Below are positions 1,316 through 47,567 of a stretch of DNA of 64,000 nt, piece by piece; positions within the stretch are counted from its first letter, which is position 1, and the number at the start of each line of letters is the position of its first letter. The stretch is from Corella eumyota (lineage: Eukaryota > Chordata > Ascidiacea > Phlebobranchia > Corellidae). The stretch lies in contig OY720098.1 in assembly GCA_963082875.1 (NCBI GenBank), forward strand, positions 14,446,001-14,510,000, written 5' to 3'. The notes below the pieces were generated by a model. That model made no database searches and was not told the origin of the DNA. It saw only the letters and a list, made by a program, of their open reading frames with translations. The position numbers and the translations under genes were made by a program.

Positions 1316-1420
1316 TTTTATGATTTTTAAATTTATTCAAGCAAAAATTATGACATCACAATACTATTTTTCTTTTACGAATTTTTTTTATATGGAAAAT
1401 GTACGGTGGCCCACAAGGGC

Positions 1421-4874: not shown

Positions 4875-4878
4875 AAAT

Positions 4879-7426: not shown

Positions 7427-10100
<2,674 letters not shown>

Positions 10101-12080: not shown

Positions 12081-15000
12081 TCAATACGTAATGATTTTGT
12101 ACAATTTTGACAGAGTATCATATGGGTAAGCTGAGGCTAAAAAGTGTTCGCCTTCAAAATTGACATAATTAAAAGAAGAGGTACGTCCTATTGGTAAATT
12201 ATGAACAGGCACAAATTTTTCCACACCTTGCCACCTATAAAATATGAATAAATAAATTTAAGAGTGACAGGTCAAGTAAATCTAAAAAAACTAACCAAAG
12301 AAAGTTCAACCTTCAAGGAATGAGGCTTATTAAAATTTATAAACAATAAAAGAGTGGTATTAGGTTTTAACAGTACCTATAGATAACACTTGTATAGGGA
12401 GATTCAACAAATGTATGCTCTGCATAGGAATTGGCGACAATGAGAAAATGTTGAGATCCAATTTTAAAATACTCCCAGTCCAGTGCACTAATACATAATT
12501 AACTTTTATGATAAATTCAGAATGCTTTTTAAAGCAAAAAGCTACACTTTTCTAGAGTTTTGAAATTTGTCGATAAATAAAGCTTTAGAAAAATAATAAA
12601 ATAAAATTAACTCTTTAAACAGTGAAGTTATGTTTTTACTTTACACTTTCTTTTTTTCACCCATTTTTTTCGTATATACATTTATCCTCGATGTGGAAAG
12701 GTTAAATGCGCGACCTAAACATAGAGTAACAACTGTTACCCTGACCCAGTCTCGAATTGCCTGTGGCAGTTTGGGATATTATATAGATTATAATTGCCTG
12801 GTAATTCTGCTGCCGATTAAGTGCTGGCCAGGCAGGAGTTCATACCGTTTATAGCGCCTGACTAAAGGGCACTACAGCATGAGAGCAGTAGGGATTGAAT
12901 CCACGACATCATAGTGGTGTAGCAAGTGTTCTTACTACTACACCACGCTGCCAGTTGTTAATAGCATAGCTGTATTTGTAGCTTAAAGTAATTTTTACAA
13001 ACCCATAAGTTGTAATCTCCTGATAAGGCTGAAATTTTAACTCCAAAATATCAAGTTCGTAGATTTTAGAGTTAACTATCCAACTCGGTTGACTTTCATC
13101 TGGATTTACATTTGGTCCTAAGTTTAGTTGAAAATTCTGACTATTTGCCACAACGAGAAAATGGCGGAATCCACTTCTATCTGCTGGGTCAGTCATCTGA
13201 AAATATTCCCAGTCTGTTGCCCCCTTTGTCTGCAATTAATTAAGGCATAAATAAAATTTATTTATACTTGCAGTATGGTGTAGTGGTTAAAACAATTAGG
13301 TTTATAACATGAGATCATTGGTTTGGTTTCGACTAGGCCAGGGTAACAAATGCTTCTCTATGAGGGTCTTAAAAAGGGTCCTTCCACTTTAAGGATGAAT
13401 ATATAAATAAAAAAAATCATAACTTTTTATGTTACGTTCTATGTATTTGTTAACAATTATCTCAATAGTGAAATAGATTAAAAGATTAAATTTGAGTTTG
13501 ACAACCATTAAATAAAGAAACACTCGCCTATATCCAAAAAATAAAGATTCCGAACCTCAATTAATTGATGCTGCATAAACATTCGATTTCTTGAAAGCCA
13601 ATAATAAACAACAGAATCTATAACTGTTGTTCTACCATTGTAGGAATTCGCTACAACCAGTAAATGTACACTTTCTATTTTAAAAAATGTTACATCACGT
13701 CCTCCTACTGTTGGAAAATTTTGCGCAAACACAAATCTTTGACGGCGGCGTTTCCATTCATATAATTTTGAGTTGACATTATATAGACCAGGTTGTTCTA
13801 GTGGTAATTTTAAATATGAATGTTAAAATGAATTTTTAATTTTAAATACAATGTTAACCTCCCTTTTTCTTCTAACATTATTTTATGTTTATTTACACTT
13901 AATGTGGGAAGGTATAAACATAGAGTAACATTTGTTGCCCTGACTTAGTCTTAAGTTGCCATTTGCAGTTTGGGAGATTGATCTTGTTGCCTGATAAATG
14001 CTCTTGTGCTTCGTTCTGGGGTCGAACAAAGGGCCTCATGTAGTAAAGTCAAGTGTTCTAACCACTTCACTGTATAGCCATTTTTGTAATAAATTCACCT
14101 TAGAATGAATGCCGATAAAAAATTTACTCACCTACACTTTCGTTATTAACAACAAACAAAAAATTGGATTTTCCTATAGCAAAAGCTCCAAGACCCTGGG
14201 CTCGTTCTGTTCTAATCTTTTGGTATAAATTAAATTTGTTTATCATACTGGACCAAATATAAATTTCACAATACACCTTTTTATCCTGTTTCGTTCCACT
14301 GTTTGCTACAGCCAAAAAGTACTAAAAACAAATGTGTTTTAAGCCATTTGGGTTTCCTTATCTTATTTGGGTTTTCTTTGGTATTAAAAAAGGTTTTTAA
14401 AATTATTTTTTTGGTCAAAAGTAAGTTTAATAGAACATATTTTTGTTTGGATTTGGACTATGTTATTATATATTTTTCAATGTAAAAAATTTCCCTTTAA
14501 ACTAGTGTTTAAAACAAAATTCGTAAAATTAATGCATTCTAAATCAGTAAGTAAAACAAGGTAGGTGTTTAGTTTACCTTTCCATCAATAACAAATGCCT
14601 TCCATTTATGTGCTTCCTTAGTCTTAAAAGTTTGAAAAAGTTTAATACTTTTGCCATCCCATAAGTAAAGTCTCGATTTATTTTTGTTTGCAGTAACAAA
14701 AAAAGTGCCGTAACCTTCTATTGTAAATGCTTCAATAGATAATGTTTTGTCTGTGCTTTCTTCACTATTATAATCCCTTATATCTTCATAATCAATAATG
14801 TAATCCAACCGTTCCTGTCCTAAGTGAATGAGGATTTTAAAAAAGTGTCTTTTCAGTGTTACATTTTTTTTAAATAAAATATAAAATATCTCAATGTGCA
14901 AAATAATGCAACTAATGGAAACAAAAATTACTGAAAGAGTGCATTACTAACCTAAATAAGCAAAATTGACTTACTTAGTTAAAGTTCAATAAAAAAAAAA

Positions 15001-18000
15001 TTTTTCTTTAAATTTTACCACAATTAACTTGACTTTAGTTTATTTTTCTTACCGCCACGTATTGGCTTGTATGCATTTCCATTACAAATTTCCAATGTTC
15101 TTTCTTGAGTGTATTTTAACTTTCCTCTGTGTGTTAATGAACATGGGATCACATCCTCTGAATAATCAGACTCAAAGAAAACTAAATAAATTACTTGGTT
15201 ATAATATTGTTTTAATAATTTCAATTAAAAATAATGCAGAAGGTTTATTATGATAAACATTAATAATATATTACTAGTGTGTTACAAAAATAACGATTTT
15301 TTTTTGCATAAAAAATTTATGGCTATATGTAAAGTTGGGACAAATTTTAACAAACCTAACTGAAATAAATAAATAAACCGCCTTTTAGTTGTTAAAGTAA
15401 TTTAGTTTGCTTTTTATTAACAATATAATTTTAATAAAATATAGTATACATGGGAATTAAATATATTTTTAAAATTAACAATAAATAACTAACTGTTGTT
15501 AAAGAAGTGTTTATATTAAAGTTTAAAAGAACAACAGAGCTTTTACCTTTTGGATCTGGGGTTATCAACATATCATTTTTAATTTCTAATTGCCCAAATC
15601 TGGGGTTATTCGAAGGACAAATTTTTTTGGAGGCATCCACTCCTGGAAAAAGGATAAATTGGCGTAAAAACCCCTGCCAAAATGTAGAACAAATATTTAA
15701 AAAATACTGCCCGAAGTTGTTTAGTTTTTTTTAAACATTAAATAAATAAAAGTTATTTTTTATATTTATTTTATCCAAAAAAAATCAAAGCTGGCTGTAG
15801 ATGCTTTGTAATTTTAAGAAACAGAGAATTTTTCGGGGTAATTGATTTTACTAATTTTTATATATTTATTATAATATATATATTTAAATATACATATTTT
15901 ATAATCATTTTCTTTTTTTTATTAAACTATTGAGTATTTTATTTGTTTTTCAATGATTAAATAACTATTGGCTGTAGCAATTAGTATAAATGTATATAAC
16001 AGCCTTTTAACCACCTTTAAAACTTACAATATATCTTCTTCTTTGTTTTCCTCGACTGCCAATGAAAAATATTGTATTTTTGATATTCATTTTTCTAGGA
16101 AAGGCATGTGGAAAATTTCTAAAAATACAAGGAAAATGTCACACAAAGTTTGTTCACATTAACTTCAAGCGTTTTATAAATCCTACCACATTAATAAATA
16201 ATGCAATTTAGGGATAAGAAACATGAAATTAATCACCTTTTTATAAAAAACAAACATTTATTTGCACAAATAAATTTTTTGATAAGAAAATTTTGTAAAT
16301 TAGATTTATTTACCTAATTAAAAAATAAGTTTTAAAATCAGCATTGATAATTGTAACACAAATTAATAGTTTGTTTTGATATTTGAATTATACCTTTCCA
16401 ATCAGTACAACACATTATTAAAGAAAAAAATGTCAATTTAAATGATGTCTGTAATGTATTAAGTATATTGCGTCTCCGCAGATAACTGCGATTCGTTAAT
16501 GACAATAAATTCTGCAACTTCAATTTGAAAGAAACATATTTATAGAGACAACTAGTAAATATTTATTACAAAATGTCCACCCATAACAGCAACATGCCAA
16601 CAAAAATAAAGAAATTTTTATTCTGGATTTAAGACACGACGTGAAAGAATGCTGGAAAAACCAAGAAGTTTAAAAATCCAAAATCTAATAGAAAAGATGG
16701 TACATCGTATAAATCATAGTGGAAAGTTTTCTGAGTTTGCTAATACGTCCGAAATTATAACTATGCCATCACAATTAAAATCGAAATAACGTGAACAAAT
16801 TTTGAGAATTTAACATCTTAGATTTTTGTGCGTTAATTTTTCAGTTAATAGTTTCTTAGGAGCTGCAATTCGTTGCATCACTTATTACTCGGCATTTGGT
16901 AATGCGTTTTTTGTTTTTTAAGTTTGTGTGTTTGTATTTTTTTTAATTTGCCTATCGAAAAATATTTCTTGTTGAATCGTTTTACCTTATAGTTATTAGA
17001 GTTAACGCAGTTGGTTGACTAAGTTAGGATTGTACTTGTCTTGCTCGTAAAAACCATTTAATTTGCCAATTTAAATAGCGGAAGCCGTTGGTAACAAAAT
17101 TAATAACTTCCTAATTACTTCGGCTGTTTTTTTGCTGGGTATTACGAAACAATAGACAGTATATTGTTTTGGATTTCTACCGAATGTCAATGTTTGTTCA
17201 GTTAGTTTTTAAGGTAGCTTAACGCATTTAATTATTTCTACTACGGATATAGTAGAACCAACTTTGTAGATATAATTTACATAAAAGACAAAAAAAAGAT
17301 TATTGCCCCAGTCCACAACAAAGGTAGCCTTTAGAAAAGAAATATCGATAAGTTAAATATGATTAAGAGATATTTAAACTAACTTAACCAATTTGTTATA
17401 ATGTTTTAAAAACAACAAAAACAACATACAAAGAGTTAATTAAATTAAACATGTCAAATAAAACGTTAAAAATTTACTTACAACAAACACAAAATAATAA
17501 CAAACAAAGGAAAAATAGCATTCTTTACCTCCCTTTTAGCCCCCCTCGTAACAAAAAATCGCAGTTTTTTGCTGCAAAAAAGTATTTTGATTGCAAATCT
17601 AAAAAAAATTAAAAACTGACAATTTTACTATTTAGTAACGATTAATTTTTTAAATACCGCGAATATTTTCGTTTTTACTTTTTGTGCAAGACTGATGAAC
17701 CTTGACCTAATTACAAAATTTTTCTTTTTTAAAAGCATTTCTTTATAAAAAAAATGAGTAAAAACCAGACTTAAACATTCAGTAACAAATTGTTTCCGTT
17801 TTTATTATATAATGTCTTACCAGTGTCACTTATTTTTGATAATGTCACTGGTTGTCAAATTATAGCCTATTTTCTTCATGTCATGTGAATATTCGAGCCG
17901 TAGAGTAACGTTACAAATAAAACAACGGCCGCTCGAGAACAGATTCACTTTTTAAACGTACCCGGCAATCCGTTAGATCTAGAAATTTAAGACTGTCCGT

Positions 18001-21000
18001 CCATCGGCAGCTAACCAGTAGTGCATAAAACAGTCTGTCGCTCTGTTTGCGTTAAAGTCTTGGATCGTTTACCTTTTCCTAATATCCGATTTTCACAAAT
18101 CATGTGGTTGCAATTTACCCACAAAACTGCACAGCTATTTATTAGTTTATACAAACTTTTATTTAAAGCTGAATGCGATGACCTAGCAGCATGATTTTAT
18201 GAGGAAAGTACTGTATTTTAAACGATTCGGTATTTGACGATAAACGAACATGTTGACGGACAGGCCTTATATTAATCCCATCGCCTTACAGCTTGTCCTA
18301 TGTCTGCAGGAGCGGTATAAAAGTCGAATTTGCCAGGATTAACTTTTCAAAATCTTGCTAAAAAAATATATATACTGTATTTGCTTGAACCCTTCTTAAA
18401 GCAGGATAATAAATAAAAATATCATCAATTAATAAACTTTCGCATGCTTAGGCCAAGATCAATTACGTTTTGCGAAAATAAAGTTAGATATTTAGTTTGT
18501 TTAAAGACTCCCAATGTCAATAAAACTATTTGTTTTTGATCCTTATTTTAAAGCCTTCCATCATTTAATCCAAATGCATCCCTACAGTTTATTGTTACAA
18601 ACTTTTTATAGACTCAGATTTCCAACAAGATAATTTTTAAATAAAAAAAATACATAAACTAAAATCTTTTTTGAGTTATTAGAAAAAAGTCAAAAAGAAA
18701 TGTGTTGGTGAGTTTAACTGATTGCCAATTTTTTACCAACTTATTTTGTATTGAAATATGCAACAATAATTGTATCTTTCAAAACTTTTAATTGCTGGTC
18801 ATAGGCAGCAATTGTTTGATAGTATAATGTTGTCGTCAAATTTTATTTCGTCTCATACAGTTAATACTTTAATAGAGCAATGAATGTGTTTTTCTAATCC
18901 AATAAAATTTCGATAAATTTTTTATAGAAAAAATTTCTAATGAAAATTGGCATTGTTGCCTGATGTTAGATCAAACCTAATTGTCTGCTGTTAGATCAAA
19001 GTATTTTACCGACGCTTTACCATGTACTAAACGTAAAATTATATTGCTTTTTATTCCAAATGATAGTCAATATTTAATGAGCATACTAAAATTGATATAA
19101 TGACTCAATTATAAGATAAAGGCAAATTTAAAAAAACGCACGTTTCGTGAATTGTGAGCTCTTTAGTTGATATATGCTTACAAATGAGTAGCCTAACTTT
19201 TTCAACCGGCGGTACTGTTTGATCATTTTCGCGTAAAACGACATGGTTCTTATAACTCTGTCGGAAACGGAATTTATATGTTTGCATGGCTAACGATGCT
19301 ATCACGTGGTTTAGGCGGTATGTTTGTATAATGCTAACCACGATAACGTTTGCTATGGTAAATAGACAAATAATACCTGGTGTTTACTAAGCAAGCATGC
19401 TCTGTTCGCAAATGTTTTAATAATATTACTTTACATTATTTTTTTATGGTTTGGTGGTCTAGACATAAAGGTCTGGCTACCGTTCAATATTTTTTTTTTA
19501 ATTTTTAAAATTAAGTAAAACCGCCCTACAATGTTTTGTGTTGTGAATATTTTTTTGTAATGTAGTCAATACAATTCAAATTTATTATATTAATCTTTTT
19601 TTTTTTAATATTAATTGTCAATATATATAAAAAATTTATTAGTAAAAAAATTTAATCGCGGTTAATTAACTCGCGGGGTAATTTCGTTTGTGCAGACATT
19701 TATTTAAGGTTTGTATATTTTAACCATAAAATATCAGGTCATTTGATTTTTAAATGGATGTAAATGTTATAGTGTATATTAAGTAAAATAACGAAGAAGT
19801 CGTAGAATTGGCAATTTAATTATTTATAAACGATTATGTATTTTATGGTGTAGGCCAATCAATGGGTATTTAAGTGTGCAAAAAGTAAAGAGGTTAGATA
19901 TTTATTATTTACAAGTTTACGATCGACTTAAAATATACATTGCGTTTACCCGCGTAAGACAAACTAAATTTACGACGATTTTTAATGATCAATTACATAG
20001 TAGCAAGTGTTTGGTCTTAAACGAAATCGTACAATACTAAACTCGCACAGAATCCCAACTTACGGCAGGTTTTATAAGACAATAGTCGAAATAACAGCTA
20101 TCAAATACAACAGTTTTGCACACACTTAAAAAGAACACAACATAAACAGGTTAAATTCCGCCCAAAACCATATTTGCCTTATCAGAAGACGTCCAGACAT
20201 ACAATTATTTTATTATAATTCGGGAAAAGTTAAACCAGCAACCATAATTAAGAACATCGTGTAGTAGTTACGCTTTCAATTACAATATAATCCCCTCTTT
20301 TTGGTGTTTTTAAATAAAAAAGTGTCATTGAAACAAAATACTTTTAATATTTAATGAAAAATTTAAATTAAGTTGTCAAAAATCTTATTTTTGCGAAAAA
20401 AATACTATTTTATACTGTAATTTTTTAAACGAAAGTCATAAAATAAGATATAATAATGTTATCTTATACTAAAACTTAAAAACTATGTTTATTAAAGTTT
20501 TTATCCTTTTTCCGGACAAAACTTATTTTTAAAAACCCAATTTCCGGACTTTAAGTTAAAATCCATAACCCGTAACCATTCGGAGTTTGACGTTTTCAAA
20601 ACAATGCTGATATAAAAAAGCTACCTATTTGAACGTATTTATATCTAATATTAAAAGGTAACCCACACTTTACTTGGAAAAAACATTTGATTTTGAATTT
20701 TTATCAGTTTAGTAACTTCTGTATTTTGTAAGGGTAAAAATAACTTATTTATATAAATTACGAAACACAATTTGTATGTTTATAACCCAAATTACTAACG
20801 ATTTTAAGCTATATTTTTCATGTAAAATATTTTTTTCTTATATTCGCTATTTTTAAGTATATTTATAGATTTAATATTAAAATAGTAGAAGTCCCAAGAT
20901 TAAACAATTTATTTAAATTTAAGCTTACTTTTCACCGATCATTTTACAGTCAAGGGTAAATTTGACGTATTTATGAGCAACTGTTATAACCAAAGTGTGC

Positions 21001-23795
21001 CACGACCCGTCCACAAAACTTCGATCTTGGATGCCAATGCCACGCCTTCTTCCTCCAGAGTGACCTGGATCAAAATCAATAAAGATTCTATCTTCTCGGA
21101 TTCGAATTGACATCTTAATTGCTTGGCTATTCTAAATTGAAAATACAATTCGAGAAAATTTTAAAAACTAACAGGACAACTTGGTAGCATAAAATGGTAG
21201 AATAGCAAAAATAAATTGTATGTATAAAGCTATTGAAAAACGGCGTTCGATCAACAGCACATAATATTAAAGAGAAATAGTTGATAGCCCATCCGACCGA
21301 CTGAATTTAATTGTCGTGGCCACAACTAATATAGGCTTTCAATAATTTAACCGATCACATAAACGACAGATTTTTAAGGTCTATAAATACGTATGTATGT
21401 TTTGTCCACTAAGCTTTATTACAAGTTACAAATTACAAATGGAGCGTTAGGTACAGAATACCATTATATAAAAAAATTCAAACCTGATAGATTAAAATTG
21501 TTTTTTTCCTACCTTTTCAATTAACGCCATCACAAATTCATTAGTTGAGTTTGCTTGGGGAAAATGTTTTAATGTTATAATAATTGAAAACTCGGACGAA
21601 AATATATTGCACTTCATAAATACAGAATCGCTGCTTGCTGAAATAATCGGAGTGCTTGAGTTAAACCTATAGTAACAAAACACATTTAACTTTTGATATT
21701 TTATTAAATTCTTCTAAATATCTAATGAATTTAATATTTATTGTGCCTACGAAACAGTAAAACAAAGTTTTACATATATTTAAAAGGCTATTGTTTTTTG
21801 AACCTGACACAAAATCTTATATATTTTGCCATTTTTTGTAAAAACATAAACATTAATTTAAATTAATAAATAAAAATTATTGAAATATTGCCGATAATGA
21901 GAATTTAAGCTTACCAATACCCGTTTATTCCATTTTCAACAACTTCCAATTTACTCGGAGAGTTACCCAATGCATTTCCCAATAAATCGATTGGTCTTGG
22001 GTCTATAAAAAAATATGATTATCAAAATAAATAAATAAAAATCAAAACTTAGTATTTTGTTTAACTATACAAACAAGAATAATTATAATGATTGTTAAAA
22101 ATTTTTTAACATAAAAGCTTTTTCCAAATATGTTACGAGTGTAAAAAATAAGGTTTTAACATTCTTTAAATAAATAAAATAAAAAATTAAACAGACATGC
22201 CCATTAAATTAAAAATAAATTTAATTATAATATATGATTCGTGTACTTGTTGTTACAGTTTAAAATTACGTTTAACATGAGGTTACTGCTGATAAAATTC
22301 AAGGGTTTGTAGCAAAATGTTGCGTTAAGATAATTGAAAAAATTTGTTTCCAATTTTAAAAATTAAATCGATTTTTGAGGTGCAACAAAAATAAATACAA
22401 AACTTGTTAGATTGGTCAATTACTATTTCACATAATACGAAATAGTTAAATACTTAAAAAGTATCTCGAAAAGGTTAACCAAACAAACACATCCTATTTG
22501 AAATAACAAATTAAAGTTCAAATAGACGTAACAATACCAAACCACACCAAAAACGAGATTTATAAACCGTAGGAAACTCGATATCTTGTCTAAACAAACG
22601 ACAACTAACAGTTTGAAGGGCTATTTTTAACAAGTGTTTAAATGTACATGAACTTGAAGCGCCGATTTAAAGCGGCATCATAATTGTCTTATTTTATATC
22701 ATCACCTCTGATTTGACCCTTCATATATTATAGCGATAAAGTTGGAAAAAATATAAAGCGGGTACAATTAGCTTTAGCTTTTTTTGGGTTGGACTTTAAA
22801 TCGACTGGTTTCACATCGCGTCACGTTTATTAAATGTCGGACCACATCAAAGGCGAAATGGTAAAAGCAGTCGCGAACTGAAACTGCAAAAACGAGTATA
22901 GGAAAAAAAACTTATACAAAGATGGTTAAAATTTGTCTAACTTTAAAGGAAAAGTTTTTATTTAGTTCTAATTCCAAATCTCCTCAGGAAATGTGCAAAT
23001 CTTATTCACCTCTTCGGTGTGAAAACGCCGTAACTGAGTTTCATTTATTTTGTGTCACGTTTTTATTTATTTATCTAAAATATAAACCCTTACAAAAGTT
23101 TAACATTTATGTATTATAGAATAAAAATATAAAGGCGTTAAACTGTTGCAAAATTACCCAAATAGCAAATTGTTGATATAATACAATTTTGCTTTGGCAA
23201 TTGGTTAACTATAAAAACAGTTTTTATATTTGAAAACTTGAAAAAATTTCGATTTCGTATTAGCATTAAAAGTTTAGTTCATGTCGCTAAATTTTGTATT
23301 TGAGACGATCAGAAAATAAAGCGCACTATATTTCCTAATACCGGCAAAATTATTTGGTTAATAGCTATTACTTTTTATATAAATTACTTGAAAACTTTTT
23401 AAAGTTTACTACCCATCACTTACTTGTACTCACAGCTGTAGCCGCAGTAATATAGTGACTCACTTAATCGTAAATCTTAGACTGTCTGAATTTACGACTT
23501 TAAATAGTAGACCAAAAAAATGACATTGACTTTTTGGGCGTTATTATAGAGTTTTACACCTTGGACTTCATAACTTATATTATATTAAATAAAACGTTTT
23601 CGTTTTAAAAATGCTGTTTACAATAATTACTTATGGTTAAGTATCCGAAAATAACAATTTATTTAAGAACGGCTTGCTAATTAGAATATGTAATTCTTAC
23701 TTACGTGAACATGGTTGTTGGTAAGTAATAGATGTCATCCGCAAAAAATAGAATAACAGAAATTGAAAAAATGTTAAAAAGTCGTTCGTTTGCAT
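12081..23795 (-). CDS. TSPEAR: TSPEAR-like protein A (13 exons, 674 aa)
   Basis: Exons in transcript order: 23795-23705, 22002-21915, 21666-21513, 21131-20929, 16094-16028, 15673-15547, 15181-15053, 14819-14578, 14321-14132, 13797-13556, 13229-13003, 12487-12377, 12234-12081. All borders are GT-AG, phases agree throughout, and the total is 674 codons plus TGA (human TSPEAR is about 669). Residues 1-28 are a hydrophobic signal (FLTFFQFLLFYFLR), then PCSHPRPIDLLG starts the laminin-G/TSP-N-like domain to about residue 245, with DGSWHTLVITV and FFIGSRGKQRRR. Residues 290-674 hold seven EAR repeats, each with an xFLxVAN-type core, and the protein ends KLYKIITY. Family role: a secreted or surface protein needed in ear and tooth epithelia of mammals; EAR repeats should fold as a seven-bladed propeller. 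The function here is unknown. Gene B is its head-to-head partner. Confidence 0.9.
12668..12956 (-). repeat. Nearly full-length SINE copy
   Basis: Read on the minus strand it runs from the GGCAGCGTGGTGTAGTAGTA head to the ATCGAGGATAAATGTATATA-like end. It lies in the intron between exons 11 and 12 of TSPEAR-like gene A. Confidence 0.9.
13268..13412 (+). repeat. Internally deleted SINE copy
   Basis: The tRNA-like head (GCAGTATGGTGTAGTGGTTA) is joined almost directly to the 3' end block (CCTTCCACTTTAAGGATGAA), so most of the body is missing. It is in gene A between exons 10 and 11. Confidence 0.75.
13880..14084 (-). repeat. Diverged SINE copy
   Basis: The minus strand carries the head (GGCTATACAGTGAAGTGGTT), a shortened body and the AATGTGGGAAGG complement of the 3' block. 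It is in gene A between exons 9 and 10. Confidence 0.75.
16095..20928 (-). other. Long intron 4 of TSPEAR-like gene A
   Basis: This 4.8-kb intron follows the LamG exon, at the same place and phase as the long intron 4 of gene B. It holds no SINE. Three islands stand out by higher GC or an open frame: 16573-16789 (+), 17870-18270 and 19105-19341 (-). None can be tied to either gene by phase and homology, so they may be regulatory or decayed elements. Confidence 0.5.
22003..23704 (-). other. Intron 1 of TSPEAR-like gene A
   Basis: This 1.7-kb intron has phase 1, the same as intron 1 of gene B. I see no coding or repeat element in it. Confidence 0.5.
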
Positions 23796-25734: not shown

Positions 25735-25742
25735 TGACGTCA
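25735..25742. promoter_or_regulatory. CRE palindrome TGACGTCA
   Basis: This is a perfect 8-base CREB/ATF-type site in the divergent intergenic region. A second perfect copy lies 367 bases away. Confidence 0.45.
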
Positions 25743-26101
25743 ACCGAAATTACAAAATTATAATCATATATTTCTTTTGAGTAGAAAATTCCGTAAGCGA
25801 ATAGTTGGCGGTGCGCGACTACTTGTAAATCTCATAATTTTATAGCAGTTATATTGAGATTAAATGTGGTTAATTCTCTAAAACATCAAGGAAACGTCCA
25901 AGATATGCGGAAACCTATTTTAGACCCAACAAACTAAGTCCCATATTCAAGTTTTATTAAAATTGAATTCATTTGTAATAAAAATATATTGGTTCTATTA
26001 AATTTTTAAAGCGCCATTGTTTATGTTAATTGTGTTACTTTTTATTTCATTTTTTAGTGATGACTAAAAATACCATAAATGCATGCAAAACATACAAATT
26101 A

Positions 26102-26109
26102 TGACGTCA
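26102..26109. promoter_or_regulatory. CRE palindrome TGACGTCA, second copy
   Basis: A second perfect site. Near-sites (GTGACGTCGT at about 26344 and ACGACGTCGC at about 26482) follow within 400 bases, making a small cluster. Confidence 0.45.
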
Positions 26110-34450: not shown

Positions 34451-35312
34451 AATTTTGGTGACATTTTTAATCTATTTTGTAGCGGAACTTTCTAGTATAA
34501 TATTAAAAATTCGTAGTAGCATTTTAGGCAAATAACAAAAAGAATAAATTATAGACAATACGCTTTTATAATATTGCGCAAATCGAAATTGACTTGCTTG
34601 AATTAAATAAACATTCTTGAATCAACGGTAATGAGTAATGAGAATACAGTAAATAAAATGTTACTAATAATAGAGTCGACGTATTAATAAAAAGACAGCA
34701 TTAAACTTTTCAGACGTAGCCCTTCCGACCATGATATTCTTTCACCGCGAACAAGATTAGACGATTTATAAAACGAACCAATACAAAAAAAACGCCTTGA
34801 TTGACAGCAATAAAACTTACAATACTTGATATCTGAAGTCGAGACTGAAGTACCACTATAGTTCAAACTAGACATGCGTAACCTAAAAAAATGCTGGACT
34901 GGTTTTAAGCTGTATATTTTTAAAATGATAGTAAAATTATTACTATGTAACCGAATGCAGTATTAGTGTAAACATAAATGTTAATAGTAAATGCTAATGC
35001 GCTGCTGTATAACTTGAACGTTAGGACTTTAACAGTTTATTGGATATAAAGACTGTTATAAGTTACATTATAGCTTTTTTTGCAAAAATAAGTGGTTAAA
35101 TTACATAATAGTGTTTATAACTTCAATATATGCTAATATTGAACCGTTATTTTTATAGATTTATATGGCGTAACAAGATTCTGCAAACACCGGTTAAAGC
35201 TTTAAGAAATATGAAAAACTAAAAAGTTTAACATCGCTTAAACGTGATTATTTTGTGAAAAAACATAGTCAATGCCAGTGCACATGCCACGCGGCCAGTG
35301 TTGCGAATTATG

Positions 35313-38300
35313 ATGCCAAGCTACTGGTGGACGTATTTATGCTTTTGTTGCCTGGCAACAGTAACATCGCCAAGACCGGTGTCACAATTATGCTTTGGTG
35401 AGTTATAATAACTTGTAATTAATTAGTTTTACAACAGTTAAATATTACGTTAAGCTATTAAAATTAAAACCATTTTTAAGAAAAGGCAGTTGAACAAAAA
35501 CTCGTTTAACCCCAGCTTACCATATTCATTTTCTAGAAAGTTTTCTTTATTTCCAGCGAAATGATAACTTGAATTTTAGTAAAATGACGTTTTTTTTATT
35601 TTGGTCCACGGAAAAATGTATATTTGATTAGGTGTATACTGATTAATAAAGACGTCTAAAATATAGAGAATAGCATACCGATCGTTAAAATAATATTCAA
35701 CACCATATAAACAAAGGCAAAATCTGATGTTATAACTTGAATGTAGGAATTGCATATTTAATAAATACAATTTTAAACCCCAACTACTTATATTTTTTAT
35801 AAATAAATCCTACCAGTTTATTTTATTATTATGATGACGAGTTACAGGAATACGTAATGGCTAGTTGCCTTCTTATTCAGCAGCCCGGTGCTGAATGGGT
35901 CGGCCCCGCATTCTTTGATCGTAATATTATGACGTCAGCATAAACGATTTTTAAGTTAAGATTGCTTATGTCTGAGATAAGCTTTAAATCAATAACAAAA
36001 ATACGGTTAAACGTCGTAATAAATATAAGCATTTAAACCGCGGGCAAAAATTAATCAGTTTTGTTTAAACAGTAGAATGTAAATATAAACGTTATTAATT
36101 TTCAAATATGCTGGCATTTTGGGTATGACACTTTAGTCTTTAGGTTTTCATACCCGGCAATTGATTAAAGCTGGGTGTTCAAATTGGGTAGGATAAAATC
36201 ATTTAAATTGCACTGTTAAATCAACTGATACGGTAACCTTAAACTGGTGGAAAAAAAATTGAACAAACCTACTTATTTAAATATTTTTTTGATGTGGGCT
36301 AGATATTAAAAATAGAAAAAAATTATTGTTTGTACGAAAAGCGACAATGCCTGTCGTATTTTGCCGAAAAGTAAAACCTTTAATCCAGGAAGGATTTGCG
36401 TTAAAGATAATAAATTAGGGCGTTGTTTTAGAGAATTAATCTTTTCAAAGTTGTTTTGATGTTTAAGAAATCTTGTGTGATTAAACTTCAATTGTATACA
36501 AATAAAATATAGACTTTATTTATCTCGTTATTTATTTCATAAGTATTTTATTTTTATTATAGTAAACAATATTAATAAATAATTCATATCACGTTTTAAT
36601 AACGCATTTATTGAATTTTTATAACAAAAATTACCTTTATAAATTAACATTTCATTTCTTTATAGCTTAAGAAATATATTGTTAAGAAGGTATTGGGTAT
36701 AAATTAACCTTATATTTTAAAAAAAGTTAAATATTTTAAAATATTTGGTAAAACGAATTGAGTGGTTTGTAATAAACGCACACAAATCATCTTAATCCTA
36801 TAAAAAGTGATAAAATATGCCGAAATTGTGACGCTAAATATTAAATACTATTACGAAACTTTGTTAAACGTAATTTTTTGACAAAAAATAACGTTCTTTT
36901 TGTTATCATTTAAATAAAATATGTTTATTAATTAAATTACTAAACTAAACTTAAAGTTAGCTCAGCCGTTACGTAAGAAAAGAAAGGCACTGTGCTCAAG
37001 TGTAAGTCAAACAAGAACCAGCTGCACTTGTTTATTATCATTTTTTGTTGGTGGTTCGATTAAATTGGTCAAATTTAGTTATCAAACAGAATAATCAAAT
37101 TGCTTTAGGGGTCCTTACATTTCTGGCATTGTAATAATATTTTAAACTTTTTTAAACTTTATGTTTGAAATTTTTAATATGGTATAAGTAAAATAAGATG
37201 TATAAGGAATAAAATATACTTAACGTAATCATGGATAAAACTAACACATTTATATCAAATTTAAAAAATAAAACCATAAATTTAATTTTAATGAACTTTG
37301 TCGATTTTTCGTTTGATATAATTTCGATATGTTAATAAGTAATTTATAAATATTGTTTCAAAGAAAACCTTAATTAGGTAGTTTGCTAGAAGTCTTTTTG
37401 TGGTCATATTGTCCGGGTGGGATTCCGACGCGCCATATACCCAATTTCTTTATGTAACTTTTAATACACTGATAAAGTTATCGTAGGGTACCCGGATTTA
37501 GTGCACTTTGTAGTTTGTTCACCCTGTGACTCAAATCCAAATTTAAGTAATTACGATTTTGTTTCATACTCATCGAATTATATTAAAATATCTTAGTTTC
37601 ATGGGTAAATTTTCGATATAGGGATTTAAAGTCGGCCCAACTGTATAGGTAAATAAGATAATTTTCAAGTTTTTATTATTCCCATTTTTTTCTTCCAGTT
37701 TCTGTTAAAATTTTTAGTTTTTGTAATCAGGTTTTTAAAAGCATTGGAAGCTGTAACAACATGTGTTAACGGGTTTATTATAAAATGTTTGATATACTAG
37801 TATTTAATTTCATACTAATATAGCAAATTACGTTAAGAAGAAAATTAAAAAAATGGCAAACTGTTTTGTATCACGATTTTTACACAGTTGAAAAAAATCT
37901 TAAGAATTTTATGTAACTTAATAATAAAATATATTATTTATGACATCATGCCATTATACCCCCATTCTTATTAATAAATTTAATCGCACTTTGATATAAA
38001 ACTGGTCTTTCAATTCAACTATAGTTAATTTAGAAAAATGTACGAAAAAACTCACTTTTATTTTATCGGGCGTTTTTGAAGTAAATTATTTAATCAAATG
38101 AAATTTAAAAATCATCCACTTAAATTGTAATTTTAAAAAATTGCACTTTTTAAAATTTTTATAGTTACTTTTGCTGTTTTATAGAATTTTTTAGGTTTTT
38201 TTTGCTAGATGGTTTTCGGTTATTATGTGAAATATCTTTTAAATTTTTTCAGTATACATCCTCTTTAGATAAATTTTTTTTTTAGATGTTGAGGCTATTG

Positions 38301-41300
38301 ACTTGTTAGGAAAATCTTTATCTCAATCTTCAAGTTTTCCTGCTGGCGTTGAAATTGTGAAAGAAAACGGTGTAAGTGGCTACAGGTAAAACCAGAAATC
38401 TTTTTGTTGCTAAAAGTTGTATTGTATACGATACCACATGGCACTGGAGTTTTATTGATAAAATTATACGAAACTCTATACTATATGTGTCATACTAAAA
38501 CCAACCTAATTAAGTAGGTAAAACATTTAATGGTACTACGTAGACGTACAATGGCGTTGGAAACTGTTTTAAATTTGACTGGCACTAGCTCAAATGTCGT
38601 TATAAGGGAAATTTTATTTAGGTTTTTCACGCATCAGTAACAGTAGAGAAATAAAAAGATACGATAAATAATAAATTGACTACGTAGAAAAAACGTCAAA
38701 ATCAATTTCATGATTTAAAGCAGGGGGGCCACAATTGTATAATATTTACCCATAATTTTATGTTATGTCATGGTATGGTCACGAAATCTAATTTAATGAG
38801 GATTAATAATAACTACCGTAAAGTTTTTATTTGTTTGCATAAAATGCGCACAGATGATAAAAAAGGCAACAATAACGTTAAAAATAAAATATAAGTCACT
38901 GGATTTAATGTCCAAATATTAAACTGTATTTTTATTTAAATTTTATTAGAGTGTATCTTAAAAAAAAACAAAAAAAAACCTTTTAACCATTAAACTGGTT
39001 CAATTTAATCTTTAACACAATTTATAGTACATTTTCAACCATATTTGCTTGGTTTATAACGTATGAAAGCACACAACTAGTAGATATTGCTTTGATATCT
39101 ATTGTATGTAATCTGGACAGTTAAATCATAGTTTGTCCTGGCACAGATTTTACATTCTACTGCCCATCAACTTGCATTTTAGCCTTACTATCAACACGTT
39201 AAAACTACTAATCACGTGACAATGCATATGTTCGCACAGACAACAGTTTACGAAATCACAAGACGCATATTTAGTATCACACAATTTAGCAACTTTACAA
39301 TATTTGCAATTTTTAGTTTTAAACTTTAATAATAATATAAAGGCATTTCATGTTAATGTATTCTGGATATAATCATTAAAATAAATATCCTTTTTTTGAC
39401 GTTAAGATTATGCTTAACTATAACTTTGTAATGTTAAAGGTTTTATCCGGAAGCTAGACTTTTAGGGGTACCGGCTTCTGAAGTGTTGACATCGTGTTCA
39501 TATTTACCGCAGGAGTTTTCTATTGTGCTTACCTTTCGACGTGAAATAACCAAAAACGACAACGAATATATGTTAACTCTTTTAGCTCAGGTAAAAGGCG
39601 ATATAAATGGTATTTTTACCAATATAAAAAAATCTTTAAAGCATGTGCTTTTAATAGTTAATGTGATCAAAATACGCATATAGAAACATGTTAAGGGTTC
39701 CTTGTTGATGATACATATACCTTTAAGAGGTAGTAAGTGTGACACTTTAAAAATCATTAAGTTGGCCGCTTATTTGATTTTTAGGACCATCACACTGTAA
39801 TAATGGCTGTAAAAGTTCAACGAAATAAGCTGAGTTTTGATTTCACTGCTACAACTAACCGTCAAAAAATCTCATCAAGTTACCAGAATAATCGATTTAG
39901 TGACGGAGAATGGCATACCCTTATTATCACAGTCACTAAAAAAGAAGTCAAATTTACTTTGGACTGTCTGCCATCGTTTGTCAGGTAAAATATCTATTAT
40001 ATTTAATTATTGCTGTTTAAAAATAGATTTGTATTGCAAATCAAATATTTATTAAGTATGTTAAATTCCCTTTTCAAAAAAATAAGGTATTTAATGTAAG
40101 TACACCCAAAAATTGGCACTAAACCGTTAATGCGTTAATCGTTAATTAACATAGTTAAATTTTTCGATAAAATTTAACTTTTAAGTTAAATTTAAAAATC
40201 GTTAACGGACCTGTTAACTTTCGTTTAATTGTGCTTCCGTTAAATTAATATTTTTACAAGTTTACCATGGTAATATAAAAGTATATTTATTTTATTTTGA
40301 CGTTTATTGGGTTTAATCGTTTCAATTTTAAACGATGTATGCCACTACCATCTGGCCGCTGTTATTTGAGCATTCTTTCAGTTTTTAAAACGTCATTTAA
40401 ACTTACGTTCGTGTAGTTAAAATATCAACTAAGATAAAAACTGCTGTTTTTTTAAAATAAGGTCGTTTCTTTGTTTGTTTTATTTAAGTTTTAACGTTAA
40501 CGGTTATCGATAACTACCGTTACATTTTGTGTAATTTAACTTATTAATGTACTATGTAACGAATTATCATTTAACGAAGTTACTTTCTCGGTTAACTGTG
40601 CCCACCTATGGGTATACCATATTATAAAACGTATAAATTTAGCTTTGTTAATTAGAAGTTAAATTTGTGTTCGAATGTTTAGACGATTTACAAAAACTTT
40701 AAGTATATAGTAATAATATTGCTTATGTAAATTGTACTTGGTCCTCAGTTGTTAACTACAAAAAAACAATTTAAAAAAATATCTTTCTTGTTATTTAAAA
40801 TCGTCTGGCGTGGTAAAACTGAAACGTTTTTGCCAAATGTTTAGTTTTGCGTAATCTAGCTTACTTCCTATACCAATTTATGCCTGCAAAACACATTTAC
40901 AAAATCGTTGACCTCGCAGTAAGTATACCGTCTATGTATTGTTTACTGATTTATGTAGAGCGTTACAACAATCATTTTAGTTTTATACCTGAATTGATTT
41001 TTGTTAAATTTTGTACAATGTACTGCCAAAACTAACGTGTGACCTATTAGGTACCTTATCTTGCCAAAATTGAAGTTACTAAGCAAAAGGGGTCAATTGC
41101 GTTTTTTTTATGATATCTATTGCTTGAACCACAAAGCAAGGTCGTATTTCGCAGACAACCAAATAGTAGGATGCTAAAATTCATCTGTCCGTAAACTTTA
41201 CGTAGAATCGCTTCCTTTTTGCGACATAACATATCGAAAACTGTGAAATAAACCATGACCAAATATTAAAAGCACTTTTTCAAAATAAAATTATACGATT

Positions 41301-44300
41301 TAATTCAATTGGTTTTGCCTTTCGCTTCACCTAGATCGTGTTAAAATTAGGAATTCTTGAACGTTTTTTTTTAATTTTAAACCTAAACGAAAAAAATAGA
41401 ATTTATTATTATCAAAAGTGTAATTTAACCGAAATTCCAGACTTTCTTTTATAACAAAATTTGCGTGCAGTTGAAACATGTTAGTAAAACATCATAACAA
41501 TTTTTGGGTAAAAGTTGTTGGTCGCTATGTTAGACTTCAGTCGAGGAACCAGAACCAAAAAGAATCACAATAGATTACCAACATACACACTTGTACATAT
41601 TCAATTACATGACAATACCAACCTAACTCCCAATTTCTATTAAAATTCTGTTTTCTGTGTATTAGGGATTTGAATAATTTTATTTACGTTAAGTTAAGTA
41701 TAGCTTAAACTTTTTACTTGAGATAATCAAGCTTAAAATGAATATTTATTAAGACAACTCCAATATTTTGAAAAACCTAATACCGGCTTAGTTATTTAAT
41801 GTTTAGTTTTATTTGACCAATTAAAAGTTGTTTAAAAAACTAATTGTATGCTTTGAATATAAATTTTATTCTTTTAATTTCATTAAACAAACAAGTGCAT
41901 AATCACAATTAACAAATTAATTTTTAATTTTTAAAATATAAAACAAAAATTACTAAAATTAAAGCCAACATGTTAAAAATAAATGATATTTTAAAATTCT
42001 ATAATAATCGTTAAGTTATTTAATAAAAATGTTTACTTAATTAAAAAAATTACATTGAAGTTGTTGGTGGATAATTTTTGCACCATATCAAAAGTGATTA
42101 AATTCTGTTTTCAAATTTTTGATTTCATTACGTGAAATATTTTATAAATTTCGCGGAATTTTTAGGCGTTCATCTCCCGCTGTGACAAGTTAACTTTTAC
42201 GGGCCGTAAATTGTTTTTCCCGCTGGGCTAAATTTACTTTGGTCCCTTTGATCATTCTTTACATTCATTTAAATTACACATAAAAAAAATTGAATATAAA
42301 GTTGCTAATATGTATTAAAATCCAAAGTTAACATATTAGTGCTTTACTTAAAAGCATATGATTTTGTAAATGATGTACCCAAACAAAAATTAGTAATGGT
42401 GATTATTTAGTTACGCTGATTTTTAGTCATATAAAATATTTAACGATAGGTAATCTTGTATATCTCTTATATGACTAAATAATCTCCCATTACTTTGGCG
42501 AGAAATTTAATAAACTGAAGACATATTATTTTTTATTTAGGTTTCACGCACCAATGACGTATTGAAATCCAAAATTTTTTAGCGTAATAATTATTACAAT
42601 TATAATAAAGTGATTCGGTGCAGAAAAAACTAAATCAATTTCATGATTTAAAACATGCTAAAATTATTAAAAAATTACGCGTGATTTTTTCAATATAATT
42701 GCTATAACATGGTTACCAAACTCACGTTTAAATAAAAAACGTTGATACAAACAAAAAAATTTTACCATGTAAAATTTTTTTTTACCATGTAAAATTTTTT
42801 TTTTTTTTTTTCAATTTTACCATGTAAATTTTTTTTTCCAAAGCAGATTTTAGTTACAATTTTTACTTTTTAATATTTGTCGCATTGATATTTCTTTTGA
42901 CTAGTAATATTTTTTTATTTTCAAAATTATATTTTACAGTAAATTGCAACATTTTCTGCCTTCAAAATTAAATATTTTATCATCAAAATTTTATATCGCA
43001 AGTCGTCGGAAAAAAAGAAATAGATTTATGGTAAGTATATTGTTACTCTTTAAATTGATAACAGAGTTACCGGCAGCATGGTGTAGTAGACATAACATTT
43101 AATAACATGAGACCTTTGGTTCGATCACCACTGCTCTCATGCTACAGGTGATAAAAACGGTTTAAACTCCTGCTAGGTCAACCCTAAATCAGCAGCTTAA
43201 TTATTAAGCAATTCCAATCTATAATATTCAAAACTGCCAAGGGCAACTAAAAACTGGGTCGGGGCAACTGGATTTTCTATGTTCAGGTCACGAGGTCGAC
43301 CTTCCCACATCGATGATAAATGAATATTTTTAAAAAAGTTGTATTTTTACAGAATTTTTAATTTTTCTACGTTGTTGTTAATGATTAGTAATATATTTAT
43401 TTAAATGATTTGGTGTAGGGACTTCTAAGGCAAGTAAAATTAATTCCTGGCGCAGACGCAGCGATTCATCTTTGTCGTGATTCGTCATCAAAATTTCCCT
43501 CCTGGCGTGGAACAAATCTTTTTATGACAAAAAGTAGGAATTTTAATATCGTGATTAAGTATCATCAACTTTTAATATATAACATATGTGTTCTAACGCG
43601 TGATGACTTACGCGTTGTAGGTCCTTTAACATTTTATTTGCCTTTGTTTATTCTTGATGTGAGAAGATCGGCCTACCTATTCTAAAGTTGCTAATGGCAG
43701 TTTTGGATATTATATATTACATTTTTCCGATAATTAAAATAATGATCGGTTATTTTGCTTTTGGTTTTTGACTCGACAGAAATTTATACCGTTTAGAGCG
43801 CTTCACTCAAGCGCGCCGCAATATAAAAGCAATGAGGGTCGAATGTTTTCACGAGGTGGCGCTATTAAGGCTTGGCTATGTGACGGTTTGGTCAATAGAG
43901 TCGTGTCCTTATTTATGTTCGAATTTAGTGCTATTTATCTAGACTTTTTACACAGTTGAAATAAATATTAGCTGTTTATATAATTGATTGATGTAATAAA
44001 ATCGGGAACTTTTTCTTTTGGCACTTACAGTAACAAAGCAGTAACAGCCAAGTTTACATTTGCGTTTTAGGCAGTCACTTAACATGCATTTTAGCAACAT
44101 TACAATTTTTTATGTTTGAAAACTGTTAGAAACTGAAAGCAACCAAAATGTTCATTTTGACAATGTTGATGATGACCAAACGTTAACTTGCAACGACGAA
44201 ACAACAGGACAACTTATGTATCGAAAAAGTGATAAAAAATTGGAGATGTGTGACGGTAATGCTTGGATGAAATTAAAAACTTGTGAGTTGTTATTTAAAT

Positions 44301-47300
44301 TATGCTGTTTTGAAATAGCATCTTCCTCTTATTAAAATAGTTTTAAATGTATATAAATTTTATTGCTACATTTATAGGGCTTTATTAATTGTTATTAATT
44401 CAAATTAAACAACTTGAAATTTTGTTGAAAATAACAAAAACTAAAATATTTTGCAATGAATTTGCAGTTGTTTAAAATAGGTAGCATATTTTTGTTTAAA
44501 TATAAATTAAAAAATAAATTTAGCTGCTTAAACGAATTTTAAAAGGCAGATATATTAATTTTGTCACAATAAAAAAACTATTAAGGTTTTTTTTTAGCAT
44601 TCCCTAGATTAGACTACGTTGTGGATTTTGGAGATTTAATGACAAAAAGCAAAACTCTGGATATCGAAATTTTTCGAATACCTGGCGAGGGTTTATTTTT
44701 AGCCGCAGCTAATCAGGGCCGAGATAGAAACATGGACTCGACGATTTACAAATGGAATGATGAAAAAAAGAAATTTGAATCGTATCAAAATATAAGCACT
44801 GATACTGCTAGAAATTGGAAATACTTTTCTATAGGCAGCGAAGTACGCTGAAACAATTTTAAAGTCGCATTTTGTTTTATGTGTTTTTTGCAGAGTTAAC
44901 AAAAGTTATTTAAAGATTATTCGGACTTTGCGGTTCGAAAACGAACTCTTTTACTTTACGGTCCCCGCCAAATTACAACTAATTCTTTTACTGCTTTATT
45001 CTATTTAAAGGTAAAAAATGCAATTTGTTTTTTGATTTAGCATTTTCTTGCTGTTGCAAATCAAGGATCTGACGAACGATCTCCGGCAGCTCAAAGCGCC
45101 ATCTACCGTTGGAATCATAACCGAAAAAAGTTTTTACTTCATCAACTAATTCGAACCTTTTCTGCTCGCAGCTGGGAAAGTTTTAAAATTGATGGCAAAC
45201 ATTACTTAGCGGTTTCTAACTACGCTGGAGGTATATTTTTATTACAAAAAATAATTAGTGCAGTAAATAGTAAATAAAATATATTTGCAGTAAAAACAAT
45301 TTCCTGACTAAGTAGCTAAAATATAATAGGTTCCGATAAAAGGTTTTAATTAAAATGGGTTTGAATAATGGGGTTTCAGTGTGAGGGGTTTAAATTAAAG
45401 GGTTAAAATATAAGGAAGTTAGATAAAGGTTTAAATGTGAAGTGTTAAAATAAAGAAGTTCAAATTAAAGGGGTTTAGATAAAGCAGTTTAAATGTGAGG
45501 GGTTTAAATGTTTGTGGTTCAGATAAATAACGCCTAAATTAAAAGGGTTTAAACGTTTGTTCACCCTTATAATTAGTTTGCTTATTCATATAACCAAATA
45601 GGATTTTAAATAGCTAATAAATTTACCCAAGATAAAAATTATAAACATTTTAACTAACGTTATTTTGTTTTGTACTTCACGGTCCTAATTGTTTGGGTGG
45701 ACCGTAAAAAAAAATGATAAAGAAGTTTTATTTTATTACAATTATATTTAAATCGGTAAAATAATTTATTTATTTTAACCATTACAGCTAAAGGTCATAA
45801 AGAAAAAAGTTGGATATATTCTTGGGATGCAGATCACAGGGCATTTGTCAAATATCAAGTAAGATCAAAGTGTAAAACATAAATTTCGAAGTTTTGATGT
45901 AAAAAGAAAAAACGTAAATTTTTTTAAAAAAAGGCGTAATTTTTTTTATCTATTTCTTTATCTATTTCCGTTATATATATTTTTAACGCTAAAAAATACT
46001 AAATAAAATTTAGTAAGACTTTTAGACTAATGTTATAACATTAACACTGAGTTTAGGCTATAGAAACAATTGGTGCTTACGACTTTGAGTATTTTAAAGC
46101 AGAAGATGAACATTTTCTTGCTGTAGCGAATTCATTTGACGGAGTAAAAACCAAATTAGATAGTGTTATTTATCAATGGAGACAATCAAGTTTTGTCCCA
46201 CTGCAATATGTTGAGGTATTTTAAATACGTGAAACGTAAATTTATTTTCGAACCCAATTTAACTGAGCAATCTGAAATAGGGAACTTATTATAAAATTGC
46301 TAATATTCGTTTTAGACTAAAAAATTCGTTTTAAAATGCAAAAAATCATTTTTATAAATATGTAAAAAGCTTTTATTTAAAAATTTAAGCTTTATTTTAA
46401 AAATATTGGGTATACAATCACAATTTTACTGGCATCCGTTCTCATTACCGAAAAACCATTTGACCAAACGGACATTTCACCAAAAACAAAAATTTCGAAA
46501 CGACAGGTTACTTAAATTTGAGTCAACGATTTTTATAGAAATAAAAAGGCATTTTTCCAATAAAGGGTTGGGGCAAGAAGAGTTTATTAAGTATGTCTCA
46601 ATGTCAATAAAATTGGGTTTTTGGGCTAATGTCAATTTGTAAAATGGTTTTCAGTAATATGATATTAATCCAATTTCTGTTAAACTTGCAATAGTTCATA
46701 GAATTACAAAATTTATGTTTTAACAAAATTATTAAAAGGACTTGGACAAACTTAAAGTTTATTTTTGTTTATTAGACTTTCGGGGCTACGGATTGGGAAC
46801 ATTTTGTAATATCCGATCGTAACTTTCTCGCTGTAACAAACTATTACGACATCGATCCTGAAAGAAATACCTACCTCGTTGATTCTTTTATATTTGAATT
46901 TAAACCAAAGATTCATCAATTTGTTAAAATTCAAAGTTTAGAAACTCACGGGTAGGCTATGTTAGAATATTACTAAAGTTTTAAATTTTATTTACTTAAT
47001 AACTTAATATTTTTTTACAAGAACATTTTTAGGCTTGTATAATTTGTTAAACCTATTTTACTATTTAAAATTTGATATGTAGGGCTTTGGATTTTGAATT
47101 TTTTACAATCGGTCGCGACTCCTACCTTCTAGCTGCTAGCTCATCAGATGGAAATGAAAAATTATTCAGTACCATTTACAGGTAAAACGAACAAATACAT
47201 TAACTATAAGTATATTATTTGTGTTCGGCAGCAAAAAGTTGGCAGCGTTTTGTAGTGCTTAAAACATAATTTCACATCATGTCATAGGTTTAATTCCCAT

Positions 47301-47567
47301 TGCTTCCATGCCATAGCATCCTTAAGTAAGATGCTATCCAAGTTGTTCTTTTCATAATATTTTATTTTGTCAAAATAAGAATGAAATTCAGTAACAATAG
47401 CCTTATTTTGTAGGTGGCAAGGACTAGAAAACTTTGTACCGGTTCATTCAATATCAACTCATCCTTGCGCAGATTGGGAACACTTTGTCGCTGACAGTCA
47501 TCATTACCTTGTATCCGCCAACGCTAAATCAAGAAAAAGTAAAATCTTGCAATTGTTGACATACTAA
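35313..47567 (+). CDS. TSPEAR: TSPEAR-like protein B (14 exons, 662 aa)
   Basis: Exons: 35313-35397, 38286-38385, 39440-39590, 39785-39984, 42940-43030, 43419-43533, 44130-44282, 44598-44842, 45041-45230, 45788-45858, 46057-46215, 46776-46951, 47083-47181, 47414-47567. All introns are GT-AG and in phase; total 662 codons plus TAA. Residues 1-20 (MPSYWWTYLCFCCLATVTSP) form a signal peptide. The LamG/TSP-N-like domain runs to about residue 255 (DGEWHTLIITVTKKEVKFTL, FYIASRRKKRNRFMGLLRQV). Seven EAR repeats follow (HFLAVAN, HYLAVSN, NFLAVTN and similar cores), ending in KILQLLTY. For exon 3 an acceptor at 39458 is possible; I chose 39440 because it gives the same 19-residue spacing to the Cys as in gene A. 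It is a secreted or surface protein by family knowledge, the paralogue of gene A, with one intron more in the EAR region. AATAAA is at 47711-47716. Confidence 0.9.
35398..38285 (+). other. Intron 1 of TSPEAR-like gene B
   Basis: A 2.9-kb intron, phase 1, with no SINE. It contains a perfect CRE palindrome at 35930-35937 in a GC-richer patch (35850-35940). Confidence 0.5.
35930..35937. promoter_or_regulatory. CRE palindrome in gene B intron 1
   Basis: A perfect TGACGTCA about 530 bases downstream of the first coding exon, next to a GC-rich segment (CTGAATGGGTCGGCCCCGCA). Confidence 0.4.
38610..38815. repeat. Dispersed repeat, copy 1
   Basis: It shares TTTATTTAGG, TTTCACGCA, AATCAATTTCATGATTTAAA and a trailing ATAA...CATGGT block, in the same order, with 42535-42735. 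Both copies are in introns of gene B (introns 2 and 4). The family is not recognised. Confidence 0.55.
40105..40615. repeat. Possible hAT-type MITE
   Basis: The segment starts ATTGGCACTAAACCGTTAAT and ends CGGTTAACTGTGCCCACCTA, giving a loose inverted end of the GTGGGCAC type seen in many hAT-derived non-autonomous elements. The inside is built of GTTAAC/TTAACG-rich words and includes TTAACGTTAACGGTTATCGA, a local palindrome. It lies in gene B intron 4 and has no coding capacity. Confidence 0.4.
42535..42735. repeat. Dispersed repeat, copy 2
   Basis: Second copy of the repeat described at 38610-38815, in intron 4 of gene B. Confidence 0.55.
42757..42832. repeat. Tandem repeat of TTTTACCATGTAAAATTTT
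   Basis: Three units of a short palindromic word (TTTTACCATGTAAA) are separated by T runs, about 110 bases before exon 5 of gene B. Confidence 0.8.
43066..43335 (+). repeat. Nearly full-length SINE copy
   Basis: It has the head (CCGGCAGCATGGTGTAGTAG), B box (GGTTCGATCACC), body and the CCTTCCCACATCGATGATAA end. It lies between exons 5 and 6 of gene B and is the first SINE seen after a 29-kb gap. Confidence 0.9.
43638..43868 (-). repeat. Diverged SINE copy
   Basis: The minus strand shows head and body blocks (CGCGCTTGAGTGAAGCGCTC and AACTGCCATTAGCAAC). It lies between exons 6 and 7 of gene B. Confidence 0.75.
45345..45565. repeat. Degenerate GGGGTTTAAAT-type minisatellite
   Basis: About 14 units of roughly 15 bases alternate GGGGTTTAAAT, GTGAGGGGTTT and AAATTAAAG words. 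It lies in the intron between exons 9 and 10 of gene B. Confidence 0.7.
46452..46665. repeat. Possible MITE
   Basis: It starts AAAACCATTTGACCAAACGG and ends near TGTCAATTTGTAAAATGGTT, which are loosely inverted. A related unit lies at about 6185-6430. It is in gene B between exons 11 and 12. Confidence 0.35.
47228..47343 (+). repeat. SINE head fragment
   Basis: Only the tRNA-related part remains (GGCAGCGTTTTGTAGTGCTT, GGTTTAATTCCCATTGCTTC, TTAAGTAAGATGCTA). It is in the last intron of gene B. Confidence 0.7.

Follow-up and report, generated by a model that had tools for sequence, protein, structure and literature searches.

Two divergent, structurally complete TSPEAR-family genes in the ascidian Corella eumyota, likely derived from an old local duplication

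Introduction

Two neighbouring genes that point away from each other and encode proteins of the same architecture raise the question of whether they arose from one another and whether they are still held together by common regulation. This question is posed by a stretch of 64,000 nucleotides from Corella eumyota, hereafter the window, which is AT-rich (G+C content about 28%), contains spliced genes, and harbours two genes resembling TSPEAR, referred to here as A and B. In humans, TSPEAR is associated with deafness and ectodermal dysplasia; its molecular role is poorly understood. We rebuilt both gene models and analysed their domain plan, their introns, their divergence and the DNA that surrounds them.

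Results

The window contains two full-length TSPEAR-type genes in divergent orientation

Exon homologies were located by six-frame self-comparison of the 64-kb window, which revealed a collinear series of homologous exons, with gene A on the minus strand and gene B on the plus strand. Spliced models were derived with a small codon and splice model trained on the homologous exons, the exons being chained by phase, and the ends of both models were then fixed by reading the sequence by hand. The resulting features are as follows.

Gene A, 23795..12081, minus strand, 13 exons, 2049 nt, 682 amino acids
23705..23795, minus, A exon 1, 91 nt: ATG and leader MQTNDFLTFFQFLLFYFLRM... (assigned by hydrophobicity only); ends in phase 1; donor CAC/GTAAGT
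21915..22002, minus, A exon 2, 88 nt: start of TSPN/LamG; aligns with B exon 2
21513..21666, minus, A exon 3, 154 nt: LamG; LamG profile match 6e-26
20929..21131, minus, A exon 4, 203 nt: LamG core (DGSWHTLVITV..VKFTLDC)
16028..16118, minus, A exon 5, 91 nt: LamG
15547..15673, minus, A exon 6, 127 nt: end of LamG
15053..15181, minus, A exon 7, 129 nt: Cys-containing linker (C..GKLKY..LEICNGNAY)
14578..14819, minus, A exon 8, 242 nt: EAR1 and start of EAR2
14132..14321, minus, A exon 9, 190 nt: EAR2-EAR3
13556..13797, minus, A exon 10, 242 nt: EAR3-EAR4; undivided, two exons in B
13003..13229, minus, A exon 11, 227 nt: EAR5
12377..12487, minus, A exon 12, 111 nt: EAR6
12081..12234, minus, A exon 13, 154 nt: end of EAR6, EAR7, stop

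Gene B, 35310..47567, plus strand, 14 exons, 1992 nt, 663 amino acids
35310..35397, plus, B exon 1, 88 nt: ATG and leader MMPSYWWTYLCFCCLATVTS... (assigned by hydrophobicity only); ends in phase 1
38286..38385, plus, B exon 2, 100 nt: start of TSPN/LamG
39440..39590, plus, B exon 3, 151 nt: LamG
39785..39984, plus, B exon 4, 200 nt: LamG core
42940..43030, plus, B exon 5, 91 nt: LamG
43419..43533, plus, B exon 6, 115 nt: end of LamG
44130..44282, plus, B exon 7, 153 nt: Cys-containing linker
44598..44842, plus, B exon 8, 245 nt: EAR1 and start of EAR2
45041..45230, plus, B exon 9, 190 nt: EAR2-EAR3
45788..45858, plus, B exon 10, 71 nt: second part of EAR3
45859..46056, plus, intron found only in B: phase 0, 198 bases
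46057..46215, plus, B exon 11, 159 nt: EAR4
46776..46951, plus, B exon 12, 176 nt: EAR5
47083..47181, plus, B exon 13, 99 nt: EAR6
47414..47567, plus, B exon 14, 154 nt: end of EAR6, EAR7, stop

Both genes are open from ATG to stop with no internal stop codon, all introns are of the GT-AG type, and the ATG of A (23795) and that of B (35310) are separated by 11,515 bases. A first-pass annotation of this DNA had described two full-length, divergent TSPEAR-type genes of the same plan across 11.5 kb, each with an exon 9 of 190 bases and a last exon of 154 bases, and the rebuilt models agree with it in all these points. An EAR profile search found no third TSPEAR copy in the window.

A and B share the TSPEAR domain plan

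In both proteins an N-terminal hydrophobic leader, recognised from hydropathy and not by a signal-peptide predictor, is followed by a TSPN/LamG domain, a short Cys-containing linker and seven EAR (EPTP) repeats. The EPTP family of Pfam was matched in B with 264 bits (E 4.4e-80) and in A with 167 bits (E 7.9e-50), the latter scored on a model lacking exon 3. Laminin_G_2 scored 33.2 in B, above the cut-off of 22.9, and 21.7 (E 3e-4) in the N-terminal fragment of A, just below it. When a profile of the two proteins was compared with solved structures, the EAR part matched the EPTP domain of LGI1 and residues 39-245 matched NELL2/NEL. The Pfam scan yielded no further domain above cut-off in either protein, and no family for the linker of A (exon 7).

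Seven C-terminal EAR/EPTP repeats, which can be laid out in each protein, and an N-terminal TSPN-type laminin G domain, above the Pfam cut-off in B and just below it in A, are the features by which a TSPEAR protein is recognised. The proteins are not of the LGI type, as the Pfam scan detected no leucine-rich repeat family in A or B and LamG precedes EPTP. The common plan of signal, LamG/TSP-N-like domain and seven EAR repeats proposed in the first-pass annotation is upheld, the signal being represented by a putative, hydrophobic leader.

The weaker EPTP and LamG matches of A might mean that one copy, more probably A, is decaying. Both Pfam families are matched less well by A than by B, and EAR5 of A carries longer inserts, but the 2049 coding bases of A extend over 13 exons without a stop codon or a frameshift, all introns of A are GT-AG, and dN between the two genes (0.67; NG86) is well below dS, which is saturated. 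We therefore regard decay of either copy as very improbable.

The intron plan is probably older than the pair

Each of the 12 introns in A is paired with a B intron of identical phase. Ten of them occupy exactly the same alignment column, and the other two lie in gapped stretches. B has one additional, phase-0 intron between EAR3 and EAR4 (45859-46056), not mentioned in the first-pass annotation, for which A exon 10 contains no counterpart.

The splice variant c.543-1G>A (PMC12111227) places an intron of human TSPEAR between coding bases 542 and 543, which corresponds to phase 2 in codon 181; phase-2 introns follow base 536 in A and base 539 in B. Variants of the human gene have been assigned to exon 5 (c.668), exon 6 (c.872), exon 9 (c.1423) and exon 11 (c.1788) (PMC9222913, PMC12865981), and by coding coordinate these four positions map to A exons 6, 7, 10 and 12, so that the human exon number is always that of A minus one. 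Because the human intron matches in place and phase and the human exon numbers fit the layout of A, the intron plan, as judged from one human intron and four exon numbers, appears to predate the pair: it was probably in place before A and B separated, having come down from an ancestral TSPEAR gene of early animals, and could consequently be common to any two genes of the family. The first-pass annotation was right that intron positions and phases are shared, but a single duplication does not follow from them. The additional intron of B apparently has no equivalent in human TSPEAR by exon numbering, which, on coordinates only, suggests a gain in B rather than a loss in A.

The two genes diverged long ago, probably after a local inverted duplication

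A and B are 35% identical at the protein level (38% across the EAR repeats, 35% across LamG), and 22 of 73 comparable four-fold sites are identical, approximately what base composition alone would give. With protein identity this low and four-fold sites randomised, the duplication is old, as had been proposed earlier. EAR repeats 1, 4, 5 and 6 of A find their best match in the B repeat of the same number, as expected from duplication of a whole gene, and repeats 2, 3 and 7 do not. No relatives of A or B were found in GTDB prokaryote genomes or in IMG/VR viral contigs.

Adjacency, mutual similarity and the repeat-by-repeat correspondence make a local inverted duplication the simplest reading. 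We consider it likely that A and B are intact paralogous TSPEAR-family genes that originated in this way long ago and encode secreted LamG/EAR-propeller proteins. One TSPEAR gene, already equipped with the intron plan of the family, would have been duplicated in inverted orientation, and both copies would have stayed neighbours ever since. Two findings count against this explanation, namely the LamG domain of A just under the Pfam cut-off and the mismatch of A repeats 2, 3 and 7 to their B counterparts.

The same low identity and saturated synonymous sites would be seen if A and B had been separate TSPEAR lineages since early in the history of animals, in which case the duplication would not be specific to the lineage and the genes would be adjacent owing to a tandem cluster that was never broken or to a later rearrangement. 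As the intron plan is apparently common to human TSPEAR, the introns do not date the split and are compatible with such an early event. Adjacency, however, is most simply explained by local duplication, and no second TSPEAR lineage that would back a deep split is seen in the window, which makes the early split somewhat unlikely in our view.

The 5' halves of both genes lie in a SINE-free block with undepleted CpG

On one side the pair is flanked by ROPN1L (plus strand, exons within 7427-9556), which matches ropporin-1-like in solved structures (8j07_Q, E 1.4e-44). On the other side, scattered plus-strand exons within about 49445-59970 are probably CATSPERB, judged from matches to 7eeb chain E (E 2.5e-4) and to PF15149 (E 6e-4, below its cut-off); the introns of this candidate are rich in SINEs. 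An inverted repeat of about 0.9 kb at 1400-4875, the arms of which (1400-2305 and 3994-4875) are 89% identical and contain 18-bp tandem arrays, flanks an integrase-core (rva_4) fragment at 2342-2836 and together with it probably constitutes a transposable element. The top coding score of the window belongs to a 150-aa ORF on the minus strand at 884-1336 that has no match in Pfam or PDB. Searches of the window for RNA families and tRNAs found none.

A SINE family of about 290 bp is present in the window in 24 merged copies, but absent from 14,072-43,069. This 29-kb block lies between ROPN1L and the probable CATSPERB and holds the divergent 5' halves of A and B. None of 20000 uniform placements produced an equally long gap, although this model overstates the surprise since SINE insertions cluster, and the gap was seen in one window. 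The observed/expected ratio of CpG is 1.24 in the SINE-free block versus 0.79 and 0.83 on its flanks, and in 2-kb steps with SINEs masked it ranges from 1.0 to 1.7 at about 16-48 kb versus 0.3 to 0.9 at 6-16 and 48-64 kb. The contrast is not clean, as parts of the first 6 kb, where the probable transposable element lies, are CpG-rich as well, and 16 of 128 circular shifts of the 29-kb block score as high in CpG, most of them overlapping the original block. Most plainly read, A and B would lie in an unmethylated block of a mosaic-methylated invertebrate genome, and a shared regulatory domain across the block is possible.

The intergenic stretch gives little indication of shared regulation

23796..35309, no strand, intergenic stretch between the two ATGs: no SINE copy

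The intergenic stretch contains no convincing gene; its longest ORFs lack a Pfam match and have weak coding scores. Start sites served by a bidirectional promoter usually lie less than about 1 kb apart. The 11.5 kb between the ATGs of A and B, which 5' UTR exons could shorten, far exceeds what such a promoter would span, so that shared regulation cannot be read from the arrangement. Comparison of the regions upstream of A and B gave no significant similarity (best E 0.028). The CRE-type palindrome TGACGTCA, which was chosen after being seen, occurs four times in the window (1027, 25735, 26102 and 35930) versus 0.23 expected, a number reached in none of 100 shuffles, and the last three copies are located around the starts of A and B. 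In the intergenic stretch including intron 1 of B, no 8-mer, TGACGTCA included, remained significant once about 33,000 tests were corrected for. The nearest to significance in the stretch without that intron was CGCAACAC, with four occurrences versus 0.08 expected (p 1.8e-6, about 0.06 after correction).

A and B might be co-regulated, with common enhancers in the 11.5-kb stretch, one open, unmethylated block and expression in the same cells, a reading that fits either origin of the pair. The intergenic stretch and both 5' halves do lie in one SINE-free block of elevated CpG, and three of the four TGACGTCA copies surround the two starts. The distance between the starts, the dissimilar upstream regions and the lack of an 8-mer surviving correction nevertheless argue against it, and low transcription or methylation in the germline could by itself explain both the lack of SINEs and the CpG level, so that we judge co-regulation unlikely. 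That the pair is a long-maintained regulatory unit, held together by the shared block, with both genes expressed in the same cells and their products perhaps acting as partners, appears distinctly improbable.

Discussion

Proposed function of the two proteins

A and B each probably encode a secreted protein. In this model the TSPN/LamG domain would dock on matrix, heparan sulphate or a receptor, and the seven EAR repeats would close into a seven-bladed β-propeller that binds a partner on the cell surface, in line with the description of the EAR fold as a seven-bladed, partner-binding propeller (PMC3691968). A role of TSPEAR in Notch signalling and epithelial development has been reported for human and mouse, and its knock-down reduces Notch signalling in human keratinocytes (PMC5065119); a TSPEAR-annotated protein has been found in the skeletal matrix of red coral (PMC7853314). 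On the basis of these family data, i.e. Notch, EAR propellers and coral matrix, A and B may act as secreted adaptors in the matrix or at the cell surface, docking through LamG and binding through the EAR repeats. The copies probably differ by now in what they bind or in the tissue where they act. We infer secretion, the propeller fold and the adhesive or ligand role, just as we infer the local inversion-duplication from which the pair would have arisen.

Significance of the pair

A and B are ordinary old TSPEAR paralogues, the products of an ancient gene duplication of the usual kind. With two such copies, both old and complete in structure, this animal provides a natural case for asking which surfaces of LamG and EAR are under constraint, and the apparent agreement with human TSPEAR in intron position and exon order suggests that the structure of the TSPEAR gene is very old. 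The block around the pair, free of SINEs, not depleted in CpG and sharply delimited, hints at a common chromatin domain in a way that can be tested.

Comparison with known systems

NELL1/NELL2 and the thrombospondins resemble A and B in their N-terminal TSPN-type LamG domain; they contain no EAR repeats, LamG being followed by VWC/EGF or other modules. LGI1-4, the genes of which have been reported only from chordates (PMC3691968), share the seven-repeat EAR/EPTP domain with A and B, but carry leucine-rich repeats, which A and B lack. The TSPEAR-annotated matrix protein of red coral, a cnidarian, is a secreted protein annotated as belonging to the same family.

Human TSPEAR (Q8WU66), a protein of 669 amino acids with one thrombospondin-type LamG domain and seven EAR repeats (PMC9222913), was compared with A and B by plan and coordinates. 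It differs from the situation described here in that C. eumyota has two divergent, adjacent copies, one of which, B, contains an extra intron in the EAR3/4 region. Like A and B, it combines an N-terminal leader, a TSPN-type LamG domain and seven EAR repeats in a chain of similar length (682 and 663 amino acids in A and B, respectively), has an intron at the matching coding place and in the same phase, and, at the four published variant positions, follows the exon order of A, numbered one lower.
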